This document shows positions 26-10,606 of a stretch of DNA of 37,438 bases, piece by piece. Every line of letters starts with the position of its first letter. The first letter of the stretch is position 1. This DNA comes from Solirubrobacterales bacterium (GTDB lineage: Bacteria > Actinomycetota > Thermoleophilia > Solirubrobacterales > Solirubrobacteraceae). A model generated the notes under the pieces. It was given only the letters and a program-made list of their open reading frames with translations, searched no databases and had not been told where the DNA came from. The position numbers and the translations under genes were made by a program. Where the stretch lies: NCBI GenBank assembly GCA_019247075.1, contig JAFAPR010000139.1, forward strand, positions 1-37,438, in the 5' to 3' direction.

Positions 26-760
26 GTGAGAGCAGCCCTGGTCACGCCCCGCCGCTTCACGGCGTTGGCCGCCGCCGCCGTCGCGCTTGTCGCGTTGGCC
101 GGGTGCGCGCTCAAGCACCCGGTCACGAATGTCGTCCAGGGCAAGGAGCTGTTCGTCGCAAAGTGCGGGGCCTGCCACACGCTCGCCCACGCAGGGACGG
201 CTGGAGTGAGGGGTCCGAACCTGGATGACGCCTTCCGTGAGGATCGCGCCAACGGCTTTAAGTCAAGCGCGATCGAGGGACTCGTCGCCTACTGGATCCA
301 GAACCCCAACCCGACCGGCGTGATGCCCGCAAATCTTTACAAGGGCCAGAAGGCACAAAACGTTGCCGCCTACATCGCGGCCGTCGCGGCCGTGCCGGGC
401 CACGATACCGGTGCCCTCGCGCAGGCTGGGGCGGTTTCGGGGACCACTTCCGCCGCCGGCAAGTCGGTGTTCACCGGCATCGGCGGCTGCAGCTCCTGCC
501 ACACGCTCGCGGCGGCGCATGCGACCGGCACGGTGGGACCGAATCTGGACACGCAATTGAGGCCTAGCTGCGCGACGCCCGCGTCTAAGCGCATCCGGGG
601 CGCCACCCTGAAGGAGTGCATCCATACGGCGATCATCAAGCCGTACGCCTACATCCCGAGCGGCTACCACGCGGGCATCATGCCCTCGAATTTCTCGACC
701 AAGCTCAAGCCAAACGAGATTCAAGCGCTGGTGAACTTCTTAGCCGCGGATGCGAAGTAG
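26..760 (+). CDS. Dihaem c-type cytochrome lipoprotein
   Basis: Probably a membrane-tethered electron carrier on the outer face of the membrane that feeds the oxidase encoded just downstream. The 244 residues begin with a basic, hydrophobic signal ending in a lipobox (LAGC, Cys27). Two class I haem c sites follow: CGACH at 47-51 and CSSCH at 155-159, each in its own domain. The second domain (about 143-244) closely resembles the cytochrome c domain fused to the subunit II encoded at 10696-11805, including a shared Cys pair around PASKRIRG and the PYAYIPSG and HAGIMP segments; the Met in HAGIMP is a candidate axial haem ligand. The GTG start is chosen because it precedes the signal peptide directly. 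The gene is separated by 120 bases from the next gene, which has its own promoter. Haem attachment is clear; the partner oxidase is inferred from position. Confidence 0.9.
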   Translation: MRAALVTPRRFTALAAAAVALVALAGCALKHPVTNVVQGKELFVAKCGACHTLAHAGTAGVRGPNLDDAFREDRANGFKSSAIEGLVAYWIQNPNPTGVMPANLYKGQKAQNVAAYIAAVAAVPGHDTGALAQAGAVSGTTSAAGKSVFTGIGGCSSCHTLAAAHATGTVGPNLDTQLRPSCATPASKRIRGATLKECIHTAIIKPYAYIPSGYHAGIMPSNFSTKLKPNEIQALVNFLAADAK

Positions 761-875: not shown

Positions 876-901
876 TCGCGGTGAAGGTCAGGAGAGGAAT
901 G

Positions 902-1567
902 ATGAGCGGGTTCGCCAGACGGCTGCTCGGGACCACGATCGTGACAGCGGCGCTTGCCGCTGCGATTGCTGTCTACATCGCGGTTTTCTTGACCGCTTCG
1001 CCCCCATCGGCCGGCGCGGTTCAGACGGCTTCCGGCCCACACCTCTACCTCGGGAGCGTGGCCTCGGCCGAGCTGAGCGACCAGCACCCCACCTGGGTTT
1101 CCTTCTACGCCGTAAATGCGACCTCAACCCGCTGGACGCACGCGACGACGTACGTGCTGCCCGCGCACACGCTCGTGCACGTCACGATCTACCAGTTCGA
1201 CTCCCAGACCGGGCTGCGCAACCCGTTGTATGGGCACGCGACGGGCATGATCCCCGGCACGTACACGGTCGACGGCAAGAGGGTCCAGGGGATCGACCCG
1301 ACGACCGCGGCGCACATATTCGCGGTCCCGCAGATCGGTCTCACCGTGCCGCTCGAAGGGATCTCCGCCAACGCAAAGAACCCGTGCAGCAACGCGCCAT
1401 GCAGCTTGAGCACCGCCCACCACACGATGTCGTTCGCGTTCCGAACCCCGGGCAAGGGCCTATACAGGTGGCAGTGCTTCGTGCCCTGCGCGGCCGGCTT
1501 CATCCAGGGCAACGGCGGACCGATGCAGACCATCGGCTATATGGGCGGCTTCCTGAAGATCGTGTGA
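902..1567 (+). CDS. Membrane-anchored cupredoxin-like protein with degenerate CuA-type motif
   Basis: A 221-residue protein with one N-terminal membrane segment (about residues 5-27) followed by an extracytoplasmic beta-rich domain. The C-terminus carries WQCFVPC followed by GGPMQTIGYMGGF, which resembles the CuA loop of oxidase subunit II (C-x3-C-x3-H-x2-M): the two cysteines are kept, but the position of the usual His is Phe. An upstream HHTMSF could provide a His ligand. It may be a copper carrier, an electron-transfer partner or a structural subunit of oxidase cluster 1; the sequence does not decide. The ATG at 902 is preferred over GTG 881 and ATG 899 because AGGAG (890-894) is spaced seven bases from it. 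The next gene starts 13 bases after the stop, so co-transcription is likely. Confidence 0.75.
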   Translation: MSGFARRLLGTTIVTAALAAAIAVYIAVFLTASPPSAGAVQTASGPHLYLGSVASAELSDQHPTWVSFYAVNATSTRWTHATTYVLPAHTLVHVTIYQFDSQTGLRNPLYGHATGMIPGTYTVDGKRVQGIDPTTAAHIFAVPQIGLTVPLEGISANAKNPCSNAPCSLSTAHHTMSFAFRTPGKGLYRWQCFVPCAAGFIQGNGGPMQTIGYMGGFLKIV

Positions 1568-1580
1568 GCGCGGCGGCCCA

Positions 1581-2420
1581 GTGAAAGAGGTCAACCACTT
1601 CCGCCGCTTCCTGCTGTGGTACCTCGCTACCACCATCCCCCTCACGCTGATCGTGGTACTCGTGCTGGCACCGGGGATGCCACCGGGAAACGGCACGGTC
1701 CAGGCCTCGGCCGTGGTGGCGGACAACACGGTGTTCCTGGGCGTGGCGAGCGTCATCTTCATGGCGGTGCTGGTCTACTTCGTCTACTCGCTGATCGCCT
1801 TCCGCGAGCGCAACCCGAGCGTGGTGACCGAGGGCCCCGCGATCCGCGGGCACCCCCAGATACAGCTGTGGTGGATCGTGGTCACGATGGGGATCGTGCT
1901 GTTCCTGACGGCGTATGGCACCATCCGGCTGCTCGAGGGCGGCTCGGGAGGGGGCCAAGGGCCGAATCCGATCGCGGTGCCCAGCCCACCGGCCGGCACC
2001 AAGCCGCTGCAGGTGCAGGTTATCGCCCAGCAGTGGCAGTTCACCTACCGCTACCCCGCCTACGGCGGGGTGGAGACCCCTAGTATCGAAATTCCGACCA
2101 ACACCCTTGTGGAGTTCCACGTCACCTCGCTCGATGTGATCCACTCGTTCTGGGCCTACCAGCTGAACGTCAAGGCAGACGCGAACCCCGGCGTGGACAA
2201 CATCGCCTACGCGCAGACGAAGGGGCCGCTGTTCTTCAACGTACGCTGCAGCGAGCTGTGCGGCCTCTGGCACGGCTACATGTTCAATTCAGGGCGGGTG
2301 GTCCCCAGGGCTCAGTTCGCCTCCTGGATCGCCCTGCAGCAGCGCCAGTTCGGCGCCGCCCGTAGATCACTGCCGCCGTATACCCGCCAATATTTCCCGA
2401 CCCCGCTGAGGAGAGGCTGA
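1581..2420 (+). CDS. coxB: Cytochrome c oxidase subunit II (cluster 1)
   Basis: Subunit II accepts electrons from cytochrome c or a cupredoxin through a binuclear CuA centre outside the membrane. The 279 residues contain two membrane helices (about 12-30 and 50-75, with a further hydrophobic stretch at 97-116) and a cupredoxin domain. All CuA ligands are present: His188 in DVIHSF, then Cys223, Glu225, Cys227, His231 and Met234 in CSELCGLWHGYM. There is no fused cytochrome c domain, unlike the subunit II at 10696-11805; the separate dihaem lipoprotein at 26-760 may take that role. The start is GTG with no strong ribosome binding site. The TGA stop shares its A with the ATG of subunit I, so translation is probably coupled. 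Confidence 0.93.
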   Translation: MKEVNHFRRFLLWYLATTIPLTLIVVLVLAPGMPPGNGTVQASAVVADNTVFLGVASVIFMAVLVYFVYSLIAFRERNPSVVTEGPAIRGHPQIQLWWIVVTMGIVLFLTAYGTIRLLEGGSGGGQGPNPIAVPSPPAGTKPLQVQVIAQQWQFTYRYPAYGGVETPSIEIPTNTLVEFHVTSLDVIHSFWAYQLNVKADANPGVDNIAYAQTKGPLFFNVRCSELCGLWHGYMFNSGRVVPRAQFASWIALQQRQFGAARRSLPPYTRQYFPTPLRRG

Positions 2421-4342
2421 TGAGCGCGATCGCAGTCACCGCCCGCCCCCAAACCCCCCTGTGGCGCCGCTTGCTCGGCTTCAACGTCCTGACGGGGATT
2501 GTGCTCGCGGTCGGCGGCTACATATTGGGCCACTTCATCGGCGACCACATCCACGGCTCCAACCTCAATTACTACTCGGCCCAGGCCGGTCAGAACGACA
2601 TCGCGATCTTCCTCGGCTATCTCCTGGGCGTGGTCGGGTTCCTGGTCGGGCTCGGGTTTGCCAACTACCCGCTCAGGCGGATGCTCGGCCACCCGCCGAC
2701 GCTGGCCGAGAAGGAGTCCGAGGCGCACGGGACGCTGCGTTATTTCAGCCTCTCGACCGACCACAAGGTCGTGGCGATGCAGTACCTGGTGGGAATCGGC
2801 TTCTTCTTCTTCGTGGGTGGGCTGAACGCGATGCTGATCCGCACCGAGCTGCTTCAGCCCAACACCCATGTCTTCGGCGCCAACCAGTACCTGACGCTGG
2901 TCGGCATGCACGGGACGATGATGATGGGGATGATGACCTCGAGCATCCTGGGGCCGTTTGCGAACTGGCTGCTGCCGCTCATGCTCGGCACCCGGCGGAT
3001 GGCCTTCCCGCGCGTCGAGGCATTGACGTTCTGGCTCTTGATGGCCGCCGGGGTGGTCCTGATCACGACTGTCTTCTGGGGCGGCTTCCAGACCGGGTGG
3101 ACGGGCTATCAGCCGCTGGGCGGGCAGGGCACTGCCGGCTTCGACGCGTACATCGGCTTCTTCATTCTGGTGGGCATCTCGATGTGCTTCTTGGGCTTCA
3201 ACCTGCTGGCGACGGCCATCACGATGCGCGGGCCGGGGATGACCTGGTCGCGGCTGCCGATCTTTATTTGGGGGGTTCTCACCACCGCGATCCTCATGCT
3301 CTTGGCCTCGCCCATGCTGGCGGCGGCATTGATGATGGCCGCGATGGACAGGACCGTTCAGACCACGTTCTTCGATCCCGGCTATGGCGGCTCGAGCTAC
3401 CTGTGGCAGAACCTCTTCTGGGTCTTCGGTCACCCAGAGGTTTACATCGTGGCGCTGCCGGGGTTCGGGATCGTGCTGGAGTTGTTGCCGGTGTTCACGC
3501 GCAAGCCGCTCTGGGGCTACCGGATTGCCGTCGCGGGCATGCTCGGTGTGGCGTTCTTGAGCTGGTTCGTGTGGCAGCACCACCTGTTCATGTCCGGGAT
3601 CAACGCCGATCTGCGGCCGTTCTACATGCTCTCCACCGAGTTGATCTCGATCCCCACCGGATTCATCTTCCTGGCCGCGATGGGGACGCTGTGGCGAGGA
3701 CGAATACGGTTCACCATACCCATGTGGTTCTGCATCGCGTGGGCGTTCAATTTCCTGATCGGCGGCATCTCCGGCGTGTTTCTCTCCGACGTGCCCAGCG
3801 ATGTGCTCACGCACGGCAGCTTCTTCTCGATGGCCCACTTCCACTACACGATCATGGGCGGGCTCGTGTTCACCTTCTTCGCCGCGATCTACTACTGGGT
3901 GCCGAGGATGACCGGCTTCAAATTCAACGAGCTGCTGTCGAAGATCCACTTCTGGTCGCTGTTCATCGCCTTTAATGCGACCTTCGGGCCGCTGTTCGCG
4001 GTCGGCTGGCTCGGCCAGCCTCGGCGCGTCGTCACCTATCCGGCCTTCCTCCAAGGGCTCAACATCTGGGTATCCATCTCGGCGTACGTACTCGGCCTCT
4101 CGATGCTGGTGTTCCTGGTGAACGTGGTGTGGTCGCAGTTGTTCAAGCGCGAGCCGGCGGAGGCAAATCCGTGGCATTCGAAGTCGATCGAGTTCCAGCT
4201 GCCCACGCCCGTGCCCGTGCACGACTTCGACCGCCTGCCGGCGTTCGACCCGGATCCGTACCCGTACGGTGAGCCCGTCCAGGTGCCGGCATACGCAGGA
4301 GGTGGCGGCCCTGCGATCGCCTCCGGCGGCGGGGAGGCATAG
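2420..4342 (+). CDS. coxA: Haem-copper oxidase subunit I, divergent (no D- or K-channel acid/base residues)
   Basis: Catalytic subunit that reduces oxygen at a haem-CuB centre. The 640 residues include two extra N-terminal helices before the STDHK segment that opens the usual 12-helix core. Visible ligands are His164 (MHG, low-spin haem), His338 with Glu340 and cross-link Tyr342 (GHPEVY), His387-His388 (WQHHLF, CuB), and His473 and His475 (AHFHY). The aligned D-channel motif, normally GAPDMAFPRxNN, reads GTRRMAFPRVEA, so Asp is Arg193 and the Asn pair is lost. The K-channel motif PTGxKIF reads PTGFIF, so Lys is Ile416. The active site is thus intact while both classical proton inputs are changed. 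A Gly/Pro-rich tail follows about residue 600. GAGGAGAGG lies just before the ATG. It belongs with subunit II (1-base overlap) and subunit III (6-base gap). Confidence 0.95.
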   Translation: MSAIAVTARPQTPLWRRLLGFNVLTGIVLAVGGYILGHFIGDHIHGSNLNYYSAQAGQNDIAIFLGYLLGVVGFLVGLGFANYPLRRMLGHPPTLAEKESEAHGTLRYFSLSTDHKVVAMQYLVGIGFFFFVGGLNAMLIRTELLQPNTHVFGANQYLTLVGMHGTMMMGMMTSSILGPFANWLLPLMLGTRRMAFPRVEALTFWLLMAAGVVLITTVFWGGFQTGWTGYQPLGGQGTAGFDAYIGFFILVGISMCFLGFNLLATAITMRGPGMTWSRLPIFIWGVLTTAILMLLASPMLAAALMMAAMDRTVQTTFFDPGYGGSSYLWQNLFWVFGHPEVYIVALPGFGIVLELLPVFTRKPLWGYRIAVAGMLGVAFLSWFVWQHHLFMSGINADLRPFYMLSTELISIPTGFIFLAAMGTLWRGRIRFTIPMWFCIAWAFNFLIGGISGVFLSDVPSDVLTHGSFFSMAHFHYTIMGGLVFTFFAAIYYWVPRMTGFKFNELLSKIHFWSLFIAFNATFGPLFAVGWLGQPRRVVTYPAFLQGLNIWVSISAYVLGLSMLVFLVNVVWSQLFKREPAEANPWHSKSIEFQLPTPVPVHDFDRLPAFDPDPYPYGEPVQVPAYAGGGGPAIASGGGEA

Positions 4343-4348
4343 AGACGG

Positions 4349-4978
4349 ATGGAAGCCTCCGCTCCCACCCATCCGCGCATCGAGCCCGAGCCGCCGGAGT
4401 GGCAGCCTCGTAACCTGAGGGTGGGCGTCCGGCTGCTGGCCGGCGCCGAGGCGTTCTTCTTCGTCTCGTTCGTTTTCGCCTACTTCTATCTGCGCTCGCT
4501 CGACCTCAACAGGTCATGGAAGATCGGCCACGTCAGCCCCCCGATCGGCTACGGGATCGGGATCGTGGTCGCGCTCGTGGTGAGCGCGGCGCTCCTGTGG
4601 TTAGCGAGCAGGCGGCCCCAGACCGCGCTGCCCCTGAGCGCCGGGGCGCTCGCGCTCGCCCTGGCGGCGATCGTGCTGCAGTGCATCCAATACACGACGC
4701 TTGGTTTCGGCCCCGGCAACGGCGCCTTCGCGAGCGTTTTCATCGGCTGGACCGCGACCTACACGCTGTTTGCGCTGTTCTGCGCCTACTGGATCGAGAC
4801 CCAGGTCGCGAGCCTCTGGCGGCTCGGCCGCGAGGGGGTTCAGCGCCCGGTCAGGGAAGGCGTGCCCACCTATGACGTCCCGCTGGCCCGCGCCGGCCTG
4901 GAGGCTTGCTCCTTCTTCTGGATCTACTACGCCGTGCTCGGCTTCATCGCCTTCGTGATCCTCTACGTGGTCACCTAG
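4349..4978 (+). CDS. coxC: Haem-copper oxidase subunit III (cluster 1)
   Basis: Subunit III packs against subunit I and stabilises the oxidase. The 209 residues form about five hydrophobic helices, starting with a segment that holds the conserved acidic residue (GAEAFFF near residue 32) typical of the family. The sequence is divergent: it lacks much of the WHFVDGVWI region seen in the cluster 2 homologue, but ends with a similar helix pair around SFFWIYYAVLGF. The ATG lies 6 bases after the coxA stop and is preceded by GGGGAGG at a distance of 11 bases. Its TAG stop abuts the ATG of ctaG directly, so these genes form one operon. The assignment rests on context and helix pattern as much as on motifs. 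Confidence 0.85.
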   Translation: MEASAPTHPRIEPEPPEWQPRNLRVGVRLLAGAEAFFFVSFVFAYFYLRSLDLNRSWKIGHVSPPIGYGIGIVVALVVSAALLWLASRRPQTALPLSAGALALALAAIVLQCIQYTTLGFGPGNGAFASVFIGWTATYTLFALFCAYWIETQVASLWRLGREGVQRPVREGVPTYDVPLARAGLEACSFFWIYYAVLGFIAFVILYVVT

Positions 4979-5815
4979 ATGCTGGGGCACTGGTCGATCG
5001 ACCCGCCGCTCGGCTACCTCGCGGTGGCCTACGTGCTGCTCATGGCTCTGCTCTACGTGCTGGGCGGTCGCGGCCGGGGCACCCCGCTGCGCCGCGAGCC
5101 GCTAAGGGAGGCGTCGTTCTTCGCCGGGCTGCTTATGATCATCGTGGCGCTGAACTCGCCGATCGATTACTACGCCGATCAGCTCTTCTGGGTGCACATG
5201 ATCCAGCACATCCTGTTGCTCACGGTGGCGCCCCCGCTGATCCTGCTAGGCCGCCCGTGGCCGCGGTTGTGGCGCGCGTTCCCGCTGGAAGTGCGCACGA
5301 CCGTTGGTCGTAACCTGGCTCGTGGGCGCTTTACCGCGCCGGTGCGCGTTATGTCCGGGCCACTCGCTGCGTGGATTCTGTTCAACGCCACGCTCGTCGT
5401 TTGGCACATACCGGCCGCCTATAACGCAACCCTGACGTCGAACCTGATCCACCAGACCGAGCACGCGATGTTCTTCTTTTTCGGGCTCTTGTTCTGGGCG
5501 CGGGTGATCGATCCCGGCCCGCTCAAACCGCGTCTCGTCTGGCCCATGCGGATCGCCGGCGTGGCAGGAGCGATGGTCGTCGGCTGGCTGCTCGCGATCG
5601 TGCTCGTGCTGGCGCCGCACCCGCTGTACGCCCACTATGCCAGCCTCGCGCACCGTCCCGGCGGCATCTCCGCCCTGACCGATCAGCAGCTCGCCGCCGG
5701 CATGATGTGGGTACCCGGGTCGCTAGCGTATACGTTGACCCTGCTGATCGCCTTCACGCGCTGGCTCGCGGCCGACAGCGCGACGACTCGGCGCCGGACG
5801 GCTATCACCACCTGA
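4979..5815 (+). CDS. ctaG: Cytochrome c oxidase assembly factor CtaG (caa3_CtaG family)
   Basis: Members of this family are multi-spanning membrane proteins needed to build caa3-type oxidases, probably during copper delivery. The 278 residues contain about seven helices and the family's His-rich helix HMIQHILLLTVAPPLILLG (residues about 74-92), followed by WHIPAAYNA and HQTEHAMFFFFGLLFW. Several of these His residues lie where metal handling is suspected in the family. The ATG follows the subunit III stop with no gap, so translation is probably coupled. It is the only ctaG seen in the window and might serve all three oxidase clusters. Confidence 0.9.
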   Translation: MLGHWSIDPPLGYLAVAYVLLMALLYVLGGRGRGTPLRREPLREASFFAGLLMIIVALNSPIDYYADQLFWVHMIQHILLLTVAPPLILLGRPWPRLWRAFPLEVRTTVGRNLARGRFTAPVRVMSGPLAAWILFNATLVVWHIPAAYNATLTSNLIHQTEHAMFFFFGLLFWARVIDPGPLKPRLVWPMRIAGVAGAMVVGWLLAIVLVLAPHPLYAHYASLAHRPGGISALTDQQLAAGMMWVPGSLAYTLTLLIAFTRWLAADSATTRRRTAITT

Positions 5816-8635: not shown

Positions 8636-10606
8636 TCACTCTCGCGCCACCGCCACCGCGCTGGGTCGCCTCGCCTCGGCCGGCGGTTTGAAGACGCCGT
8701 GCACGGCGCCGGGCACGCCGTACTCGTACGGTCCGCCCACCACCGTGGGAATCGTCTCGAAGTTGAAGATCGGGGGCGGCGAGGAGACCTGCCACTCGAG
8801 CGACAGCGCCCGCCAGGGATTGCCCGCTGCGCGCGGCCCGTGACGCCAGCTCGCCACGATGTTCCACAGGAAGATCAGGAACGTGAGTCCGAGGAAGAAC
8901 GAGCAGATCGAGATGAACAGGTTCCAGCCGGCGAACTGCGCGGAGTAGCTGTAGACGCGCCGGGGCATGCCCAGCAAGCCGATGTAATGCATCGGCCCGA
9001 AGGTGAGGTTGAAGAAAATGAACGTCGACCAGAAGTGCAGCCTGCCCAGGCGCTCGTCGAGCATGCGGCCGGTCATCTTCGGGAACCAGTGGTAGACGCC
9101 GGCGAAGATCGTGAACAGCGAACCGCCGAACAGCACGTAGTGGATGTGCGCGACGATGAAGTAGGTCTGGCTCACATGGATGTCGAAGGGGACCATCGCC
9201 AGCATCACGCCGCTGATGCCGCCGAGCGTGAACATCGTGATGAAGCCGAGCGCGAACAGCATCTGCGTGCTCATATGCAAGACCCCGCGCCACAGCGTGG
9301 CCAGCCAGGAGAAGATCTTGATCCCGGTCGGAACCGAGATTATGGCGGTGGTAACCATCATGGGGATGCGGATCCACGGCTGCATCCCGGAGACGAACAT
9401 GTGGTGGGCCCACACGGTGAAGCCGAGCACCACGATCGCGATCAGCGAGAAGGCCATCATGCGGTAGCCGAAGATGGGCTTGCGCGCGTTGACCGCGATG
9501 ACCTCGGAGATGATTCCGAAGCCGGGCAACATCATGATGTACACGGCCGGGTGGGAGTAGAACCAGAAGATGTGCTGGTACATCAGCACGTTGCCGTTCG
9601 TATGCGGGCCCACGAACGCGTTGAAAAAGTTAAAGTGCAGCGCCGAGTCAAGCAGGATGAAGAACTGCGAGGAGGCGATGAACGGCGTCGCGATCACCAC
9701 CAGCAGCGAAGTGGCGAAGTTGGCCCACACCAGCAGCGGCAGGCGGAAGAAGCTCATCCCGGGCGCGCGCATCGTGATGATCGTCACGAGGAAGTTGAGC
9801 GCGGTGAAGATCGAGGAGAAGCCGGCGAACTGGACCCCGATGGAGAAGAAGAGCTGGCCGATCGGCATGTCGGTCGATAACGGCGCGTAAGCGGTCCAGC
9901 CGGTCGCGAACGAGCCGCCCGGTGCGAGGAAGCTCGCCAGCATCATCAGCCCGCCGATCGGAAGCAGCCAGTAAGACAGGGCGTTCAGGCGCGGGAACGC
10001 CATGTCGGGCGCGCCGATCATCAGTGGGAGCACGAAGTTCGCCAGCCCCGCGAACACCGGGATCACAAAGACGAAGATGAGCAGGCTGGCGTGGACCGAG
10101 AAGACGCCGTTGAACTCCTCGGGAGTGAGGAAGTTCATCCCCGGCTTGGCGAGCTGGGCGCGGATCAGCATCGCGAGCATGCCGCCGACGAACAGGAAGA
10201 AGAAGGAGGTGACGGTGTACTGGATCCCGATCACCTTGTGGTCGGGGTTGACGCGGAAGTAGTCGCGCCAGCTGTGGGCGCCGTGGTCTTCGTGGGTTTC
10301 CGGGCGCGTCGGGCGCCCCGAGGCCCAGTAGAGCCAGTAATCGAAGGCGCCGAGGCCCAGCAGGAAGAAGACCGGCACTGAGAACAGGGCGACGGTCGTG
10401 ATGGCGTGGCCGTCGATCACCGGGTGCTGGTGGTTGACGAACCGCAACAGCGCGGTGATGCCGACCGCAAAGCCGAGCCCCAGGACGTCGAACAGCGCCG
10501 CCCGATACCAGCCCCCGCGGCGGAGCTTCGCCGGCAAGGGGACGCGGGAGCGCCCGCGCGCCGGGGTCGTGACAGCCGTCGTGTGTTCCGCAACCGTGGT
10601 CGCCAT
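8636..10606 (-). CDS. ctaD: Cytochrome c oxidase subunit I, A2 type (cluster 2)
   Basis: A 656-residue catalytic subunit of a caa3-type oxygen reductase. Two extra N-terminal helices (about 38-58 and 68-93) precede the 12-helix core. Ligands seen: His172 (low-spin haem), His352 and Tyr356 (YSHPAVY), His401-His402 (WAHHMF), and the AHIHY pair in helix X. The helix VI Glu is Ala354 with a preceding Tyr-Ser, the signature of A2-type oxidases in the accepted classification. The D-channel Asp201 (GAPDMAFPRLNA) and K-channel Lys430 (PTGIKIF) are present. The ATG shares its A with the stop of a 9-codon leader frame that has a strong ribosome binding site, so translation may be coupled to it. Subunit II lies 89 bases upstream and the stress-protein gene 4 bases downstream. 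Confidence 0.96.
   Translation of the reverse strand: MATTVAEHTTAVTTPARGRSRVPLPAKLRRGGWYRAALFDVLGLGFAVGITALLRFVNHQHPVIDGHAITTVALFSVPVFFLLGLGAFDYWLYWASGRPTRPETHEDHGAHSWRDYFRVNPDHKVIGIQYTVTSFFFLFVGGMLAMLIRAQLAKPGMNFLTPEEFNGVFSVHASLLIFVFVIPVFAGLANFVLPLMIGAPDMAFPRLNALSYWLLPIGGLMMLASFLAPGGSFATGWTAYAPLSTDMPIGQLFFSIGVQFAGFSSIFTALNFLVTIITMRAPGMSFFRLPLLVWANFATSLLVVIATPFIASSQFFILLDSALHFNFFNAFVGPHTNGNVLMYQHIFWFYSHPAVYIMMLPGFGIISEVIAVNARKPIFGYRMMAFSLIAIVVLGFTVWAHHMFVSGMQPWIRIPMMVTTAIISVPTGIKIFSWLATLWRGVLHMSTQMLFALGFITMFTLGGISGVMLAMVPFDIHVSQTYFIVAHIHYVLFGGSLFTIFAGVYHWFPKMTGRMLDERLGRLHFWSTFIFFNLTFGPMHYIGLLGMPRRVYSYSAQFAGWNLFISICSFFLGLTFLIFLWNIVASWRHGPRAAGNPWRALSLEWQVSSPPPIFNFETIPTVVGGPYEYGVPGAVHGVFKPPAEARRPSAVAVARE

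Follow-up and report, generated by a model that had tools for sequence, protein, structure and literature searches.

A-type haem-copper oxidases take up one or two protons through the K path and the remainder, including all pumped protons, through the D path (PMC8079940, PMC6934443), and these textbook D- and K-channel inputs have so far been probed almost only by point mutants. Of 1216 sequences surveyed in 2011, four lacked the expected channel residues, and these were all B-like (PMC3084760). K-channel loss in A-type oxidases is already known, as are extra N-terminal segments. Here, we analysed 37,438 nucleotides of a Solirubrobacterales bacterium (contig JAFAPR010000139.1 of assembly GCA_019247075.1; the whole stretch is hereafter called the window), in which the gene at 2420..4342 (+ strand) encodes a CtaD-like subunit I of an A-family haem-copper oxidase. 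The product most likely belongs to a true O2 reductase of the CuA type, in which proton uptake has been rewired and still conserves energy.

Active-site and channel residues of the window enzyme

The predicted subunit I has 640 amino acids, an ATG start and no internal stop. It matches PF00115 in a Pfam search (E 1.7e-121), its nearest solved structures are actinobacterial aa3 subunits, and its AlphaFold model (mean predicted local distance difference test, pLDDT, 74.6; predicted template modelling score, pTM, 0.81) compares with R. sphaeroides aa3 subunit I at Z 45.8 and a root-mean-square deviation of 2.3 over 487 residues. Hydropathy indicates two extra N-terminal hydrophobic segments, at about residues 17-41 and 58-85. 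Against TIGR02891, the NCBI CtaD_CoxA equivalog model, it scores 527.1 bits, below the cut-off of 670.75. Alignment to E. coli CyoB recovers the haem a ligands H164 and H475, the haem a3 ligand H473 and the CuB ligands H338, H387 and H388, namely all six His ligands of the haem-copper oxygen reductase superfamily, together with Glu340 (E286) and Tyr342 (Y288) on helix VI (3437..3445, +). The intact active site reported in the first-pass annotation, an earlier reading of the letters alone, was borne out in this alignment. Tyr342, a residue missing in nitric oxide reductases (NORs), is found in every covered member of the clade described below, its cross-link being predicted. Instead of the NOR signature H-x-Arom-x-E without an active-site Tyr, the enzyme has GHPEVY with Tyr342. 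The closest similarity, the fold and the Tyr of GHPEVY on helix VI place it in the A type, and the CuA ligands of its subunit II mark it as a cytochrome c oxidase, not a quinol oxidase.

The proton channels depart from the A1 pattern, for which we used the D-channel residues defined in PMC3084760. In P. denitrificans numbering, Asp124 is replaced by Arg193 and Asn131 by Glu200, and equivalents of Asn113, Asn199 and Glu278 are present. In the CyoB alignment, the Asp at the entrance of the D-channel (R. sphaeroides D132, CyoB D135) thus corresponds to Arg193 (2996..2998, +), and D-channel Asn139 (CyoB N142) to Glu200 (3017..3019, +). From the A1 K-channel set (Lys354, Thr351, Ser291 and Tyr280), Lys is replaced by Ile416 (3665..3667, +; Lys362 in the numbering used below) and Ser by Leu353 (3476..3478, +; Ser299), with Thr413 and Tyr342 kept. 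The exchanges to Arg193 and Ile416 are exactly those first annotated. Because the canonical D and K residues are lost while the active site is intact, another proton route is required, one of the possibilities that the annotation had considered.

Conservation, distribution and order of the exchanges

Relatives were gathered from the window's genus up to its phylum, with additional phylum samples around a Chloroflexi and a Rhodospirillaceae metagenome-assembled genome (MAG), and aligned in 158 rows, E. coli CyoB being counted twice. Lys362 is present in 60 of the 158 rows, all of which have the D-channel Asp and Asn. It is missing from 96 rows, all of which have a Glu at CyoB position 353; 25 of these retain Asp132 and Asn139, and 71, the window subclade, do not. 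In the other two rows, L003 from the window genome and L119, Lys was lost without the gain of Glu353. The Lys-less clade is composed of Actinomycetota and Chloroflexi, with 61 of the subclade rows on the Actinomycetota side and 10 from the Chloroflexi sample. Each of the 30 Pseudomonadota rows that were fetched is of the Lys type, a result that covers the fetched rows only. Of 232 genomes of the order, 33 have near matches (E up to 1e-150), as do 37 of 299 genomes drawn from the class (E up to 1e-145). Three subclade contigs bear odd phylum names (L053 Acidobacteriota, L041 Burkholderiales and L040 Gemmatimonadaceae), which were not used as a sign of spread; the names are unreliable because at least one contig, L053, is a member of the window's own class, sharing its genome with one placed there (G744 place C158:8824-10662 is that of G413).

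Glu407 (3638..3640, +), on helix VIII at CyoB position 353, is a Glu in 96 of the 96 Lys-less clade members, and the Lys-containing enzymes have M, L, I, A or F at this position. Ser410 (3647..3649, +; CyoB 356), one turn from Glu407 on the same helix, occurs in 100% of the Lys-less and 10% of the Lys-containing enzymes; for Asp457 (3788..3790, +; CyoB 403), four residues ahead of Asp461 (D407), the values are 100% and 0%. Compared with the Lys type, all or nearly all Lys-less enzymes gain Glu353, Ser356, Asp403 and Thr423 (window E407, S410, D457 and T477) and lose Ser299 and Trp366. Position 416 varies among I, T, V, L and F in the clade (I 41, T 21, V 7 and L 2 in the subclade), with E407 unchanged throughout. 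The Asp at position 132 is present in all Lys-containing and all Lys-less/Asp-intact enzymes. Across the 71 subclade sequences, position 193 varies (R 68, K 1, G 1, N 1) and position 139 is kept as Glu in 69 and is Ser in two, with Asn in all 85 others counted. The subclade has further lost Ser201 and the Mg-site Asp412 and gained Gln332. It keeps the upper D-path residues N182, N261, S254, T/S203 and Glu340 (Asn121, Asn207, Ser200, Ser/Thr142 and Glu286, respectively). No covered subclade member is without Glu340, and none of the covered sequences of the 96-member clade is without the metal ligands, the Tyr or R481. At the Mg/Mn site, Gly466 (3815-3817) replaces Asp412 in 70 of the 71 subclade sequences, the adjacent His and the subunit II Glu being kept.

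The first-pass annotation had described the enzyme as devoid of D- and K-channel residues. This holds for the canonical Asp and Lys; it does not hold for the paths themselves, as Glu200 lies inside the D path (69/71) and Glu407 probably at the end of the K path (96/96). A conserved Asp or Glu elsewhere in the same channels, for which the annotation had suggested looking, is found in the D path (Glu200) and, plausibly, in the K path where it reaches the active site (Glu407). The other possible refutation that it had named, a sequencing artefact, did not hold: the same pattern is present in 71 aligned sequences of 48-100% identity and in two single-contig genomes (G015 and G501), and the ratio of nonsynonymous to synonymous substitution rates (dN/dS) against relatives is 0.22-0.29. 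The single-contig genomes, this ratio and the conserved operon rule out a sequencing or binning artefact.

The K-channel changes extend to the CoxB-like subunit II (1581..2420, +), which keeps the CuA ligands H188, C223, E225, C227, H231 and M234 (H188, C223, C227, H231 and M234 are invariant in relatives). In the subunit II alignment, the Glu at the mouth of the K-channel (R. sphaeroides E101-II) is replaced by Gln95 (1863..1865, +). Among the 62 aligned Lys-type partners, 61 have this Glu, and in the remaining one, E. coli CyoA, the Glu is one column off; it is not present in 62 of 64 subclade subunits II and is found in 0 of 25 Lys-less/Asp-intact ones (one unreadable, X). The partners of L003 and L119 are also without it. 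The K path was thus dismantled in both subunits, in coordination across two genes, on at least three lineages.

L003 (contig C358:3565-4905), the fourth subunit I of the window genome, keeps the D-channel Asp and reads PSAIQLF (Lys to Gln) without Glu353, a separate K-path loss. L119 and L064 (Rhodospirillaceae MAG) are A-type with PIGLML (Lys to Met) and YSHPAVY, are without the subunit II Glu, and represent another K-less lineage. L148, L155, L156, L161-L165, L126 and L127 carry the A2 motif YSHPAVY, without the helix VI Glu; they have the D-channel Asp and Glu353 but no K-channel Lys.

For 54 rows, an IQ-TREE phylogeny was built after the trait columns had been removed, its root not being inferred by the method. 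The Lys-less rows form one clade (support 92/92), most of the Glu286-bearing ones are joined by a branch with support 100/100, and the window subclade is nested within the Lys-less clade (100/99). Counted on this tree, K362 changes three times (two of these being the losses in L003 and L119), Glu139 two and Glu286 three, with one gain of Glu353 and one loss of Asp132. Because Lys-containing A2-like rows branch immediately outside the Lys-less clade, and some Lys-less relatives still keep Asp, the likely order is that the K path was lost and Glu353 gained first, and the D-entrance acid exchanged second.

Proton uptake and competing explanations

We favour, with a probability of roughly 0.55, a functional A-family CuA cytochrome c:O2 oxidoreductase whose proton uptake was rewired in two evolutionary steps. 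In the first, shared by the whole Lys-less clade, Lys362 was replaced by Phe, Thr or an aliphatic residue, Ser299 by Leu, Ala or Met, and subunit II Glu101 by Gln or others, and Glu407, with Ser410 and Thr413 on helix VIII, would have taken over the proton feed to the active-site Tyr. In the second, particular to the window subclade, the D-entrance acid shifted inward (Asp132 to Arg, Asn139 to Glu200). With the upper D-channel and Glu340 still in place, a modified D-type path should continue to deliver cytoplasmic protons to the active site and possibly also to the pump site.

On the K side, two of three profile groups tentatively align Glu407 to the helix VIII Glu of NorB, with low probabilities. 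In cytochrome c-dependent NOR (cNOR), that Glu lines a small polar cavity, part of which coincides with the terminal K-pathway, and it was shown to be critical for activity and proton uptake (PMC3431322). This pairing and this overlap suggest that Glu407 replaces the K path where it reaches the active site, the probable location of this residue. On the D side, Branden et al. (2006, PNAS 103:317) reportedly found that a D132N/N139D double mutant of R. sphaeroides pumps again, and we take this mutant to be the nearest laboratory analogue of the Asp132 to Arg/Asn139 to Glu shift. The shift of the acid from 132 to 139 recalls that mutant. On both grounds, a coupled O2 reductase with rewired uptake is the best reading. 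The residues, how well they are conserved, the sequence of exchanges and the operon are shown here; that Glu407 and Glu200 carry protons, and that energy is conserved, is what we infer.

In favour of this reading are the retained ligands, Tyr, R481 and Glu340, the constancy of E407 and near-constancy of E200 while positions 416 and 193 drift, the K-channel loss in two genes, the nested clades of the tree, the retained D-path residues, the intact CuA site, the conserved gene order and the dN/dS values. Several observations weigh against it. Every key exchange (Glu353 gain, Asp132 loss) is a single event on the tree; co-occurrence therefore amounts to one event per step, however well conserved afterwards, and independent repeats lend nothing to the Glu gain because each of the two arose once. 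The weight of the evidence is later conservation, not repetition. Within the D path, S201 is gone from the subclade, Ser replaces the Glu at position 200 in L009 and L018, and Arg193 could pair with Glu200, blocking the path rather than feeding it; N139D alone uncouples pumping in R. sphaeroides (PMC6934443). As for the K path, L079 and L080 of the subclade retain the subunit II Glu, and the NorB register is one off with Lys-containing enzymes as the query. The reading also presupposes that Glu407 lies near Tyr342 and CuB, and Glu200 near the channel waters.

The same D-path changes could be read as a loss of pumping. In that case, chemical protons would come from the cytoplasm by the remaining D-type path, and the O2 reductase would be a low-yield electron sink beside the window's two normal oxidases. 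Changes of D132 and N139 often uncouple pumping (PMC6934443, PMC4321873), the Mg-site Asp412 and S201 are also gone, and the genome has three further subunits I besides that at 2420-4342. We nevertheless regard it as somewhat unlikely, since the nearly invariant E200 and the retained E340, N182 and N261 are not strictly needed without pumping, and Asp and Asn were exchanged jointly rather than by separate decay.

Quite doubtful is a cNOR-like supply, in which chemical protons would enter from the periplasm via Asp457 and Glu407 and charge separation would be slight or absent. Both residues are specific to the Lys-less clade, Glu407 is tentatively aligned to the helix VIII Glu of NorB, and cNOR takes its protons from the periplasm without K/D residues (PMC3431322). 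However, the 25 relatives that lost Lys but kept the D-channel entrance still seem to be wired to the cytoplasm, Glu340 and the D-path Asn residues are kept, and the NorB register is uncertain. If periplasmic supply were true, O2 reduction at a normal haem-copper-Tyr site would either not be coupled to charge separation or owe its coupling solely to the modified D path. A non-functional or degenerating paralogue or an assembly error, which the loss of two canonical residues and the score under the cut-off of the NCBI CtaD model could indicate, is highly improbable and already contradicted by the operon conserved in relatives, by purifying selection (dN/dS), by the recurrence of the pattern in single-contig genomes and by intact ligands in 96 sequences.

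Coupled O2 reduction with rewired uptake is the preferred reading. This soil-bacterium enzyme family represents a natural ordered series, in which a normal stage is followed by loss of the K path with a helix VIII Glu and then by inward movement of the D-entrance acid, the active site being unchanged. The three-stage series makes proton-pumping rules testable in nature, including the need for each channel and the dependence of pumping efficiency on the position of the D acid, and it bears on whether a single acid beside the active site can stand in for the K-channel.

Operon context and comparison with known systems

Where a sampled subclade locus is long enough to reveal the gene order, it is nearly always cupredoxin-COX2-COX1-COX3-CtaG. 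In the window, subunits II and I are preceded by a membrane-anchored cupredoxin-like protein (881..1567, +), with conserved H145, C199-x3-C203, M215 and M221 and Z 6-7.7 to cupredoxins and subunit II domains. It also has conserved C169/C174, belongs to no Pfam family and is present in nearly every sampled long subclade locus; its residues suggest a putative CuA-like or novel copper site without the second His. Downstream are a highly divergent subunit III of about 209 amino acids (4349..4978, +; PF00510 E 0.46, relatives down to 0.0044), which is below the Pfam cut-off yet fixed in its operon position, and a CtaG-type CuB assembly factor (4979..5815, +; PF09678, 1.5e-56). A diheme cytochrome c gene (window 26-760) lies directly upstream, and no counterpart of it was detected in the flanks of related loci. 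The window genome holds a CtaA/Cox15 homologue, which is compatible with haem A use. The window's other two subunits I have the D-channel Asp and K-channel Lys in the CyoB alignment, in agreement with the earlier annotation, and the one at 8636-10606 is without the helix VI Glu (YSHPAVY).

Searches of the literature returned nothing usable on Lys-less Chloroflexi/Actinomycetota oxidases or on the D132N/N139D mutant. In the papers covered, we found neither a Glu353 replacement shared by a large clade of bacteria, nor the exchange D132R/N139E, nor the corresponding loss in subunit II; priority cannot be claimed. The main text of PMC8239418 resembles our case in reporting family A oxidases from archaeal lineages in which the K-channel is gone from an otherwise A-type enzyme, and it describes neither a helix VIII Glu replacement nor a D132/N139 exchange.

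B-type (ba3) oxidases likewise miss the canonical D-channel Asp and K-channel Lys. However, their K-analogue has Thr, Ser and Tyr at the Lys, Thr and Ser positions (PMC3084760), where the window enzyme has Ile, Thr and Leu; in its subclade, Ile predominates at position 362, T359 is unchanged and Leu replaces S299. A B-type K-channel analogue was rejected because these residues do not fit in the alignment, and the overall similarity is to the A type, not the B type. A C-type match was rejected as well, FixN having no Glu aligned to the Glu407 position. NorB of cNOR is alike in the helix VIII Glu tentatively aligned with Glu407 and in its replaced K/D-type residues, but it is without the cross-linked Tyr and uses FeB, whereas the window enzyme has the Tyr and a CuA subunit II. 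A2-type oxidases (e.g., window 8636-10606) share the two N-terminal transmembrane segments and differ in keeping the D and K residues and in having YSHPAVY instead of GHPEVY. With the A1 aa3 oxidases (R. sphaeroides, Mycobacterium smegmatis subunit I), the window enzyme shares the fold, the haem and CuB ligands, Tyr288, Glu286, R481/R482 and a CuA subunit II; it differs from them in the exchanges D132 to Arg, N139 to Glu, K362 to Ile, S299 to Leu and subunit II E101 to Gln, in the new Glu at 353 and Asp at 403, in two extra N-terminal transmembrane segments and in a very divergent subunit III.
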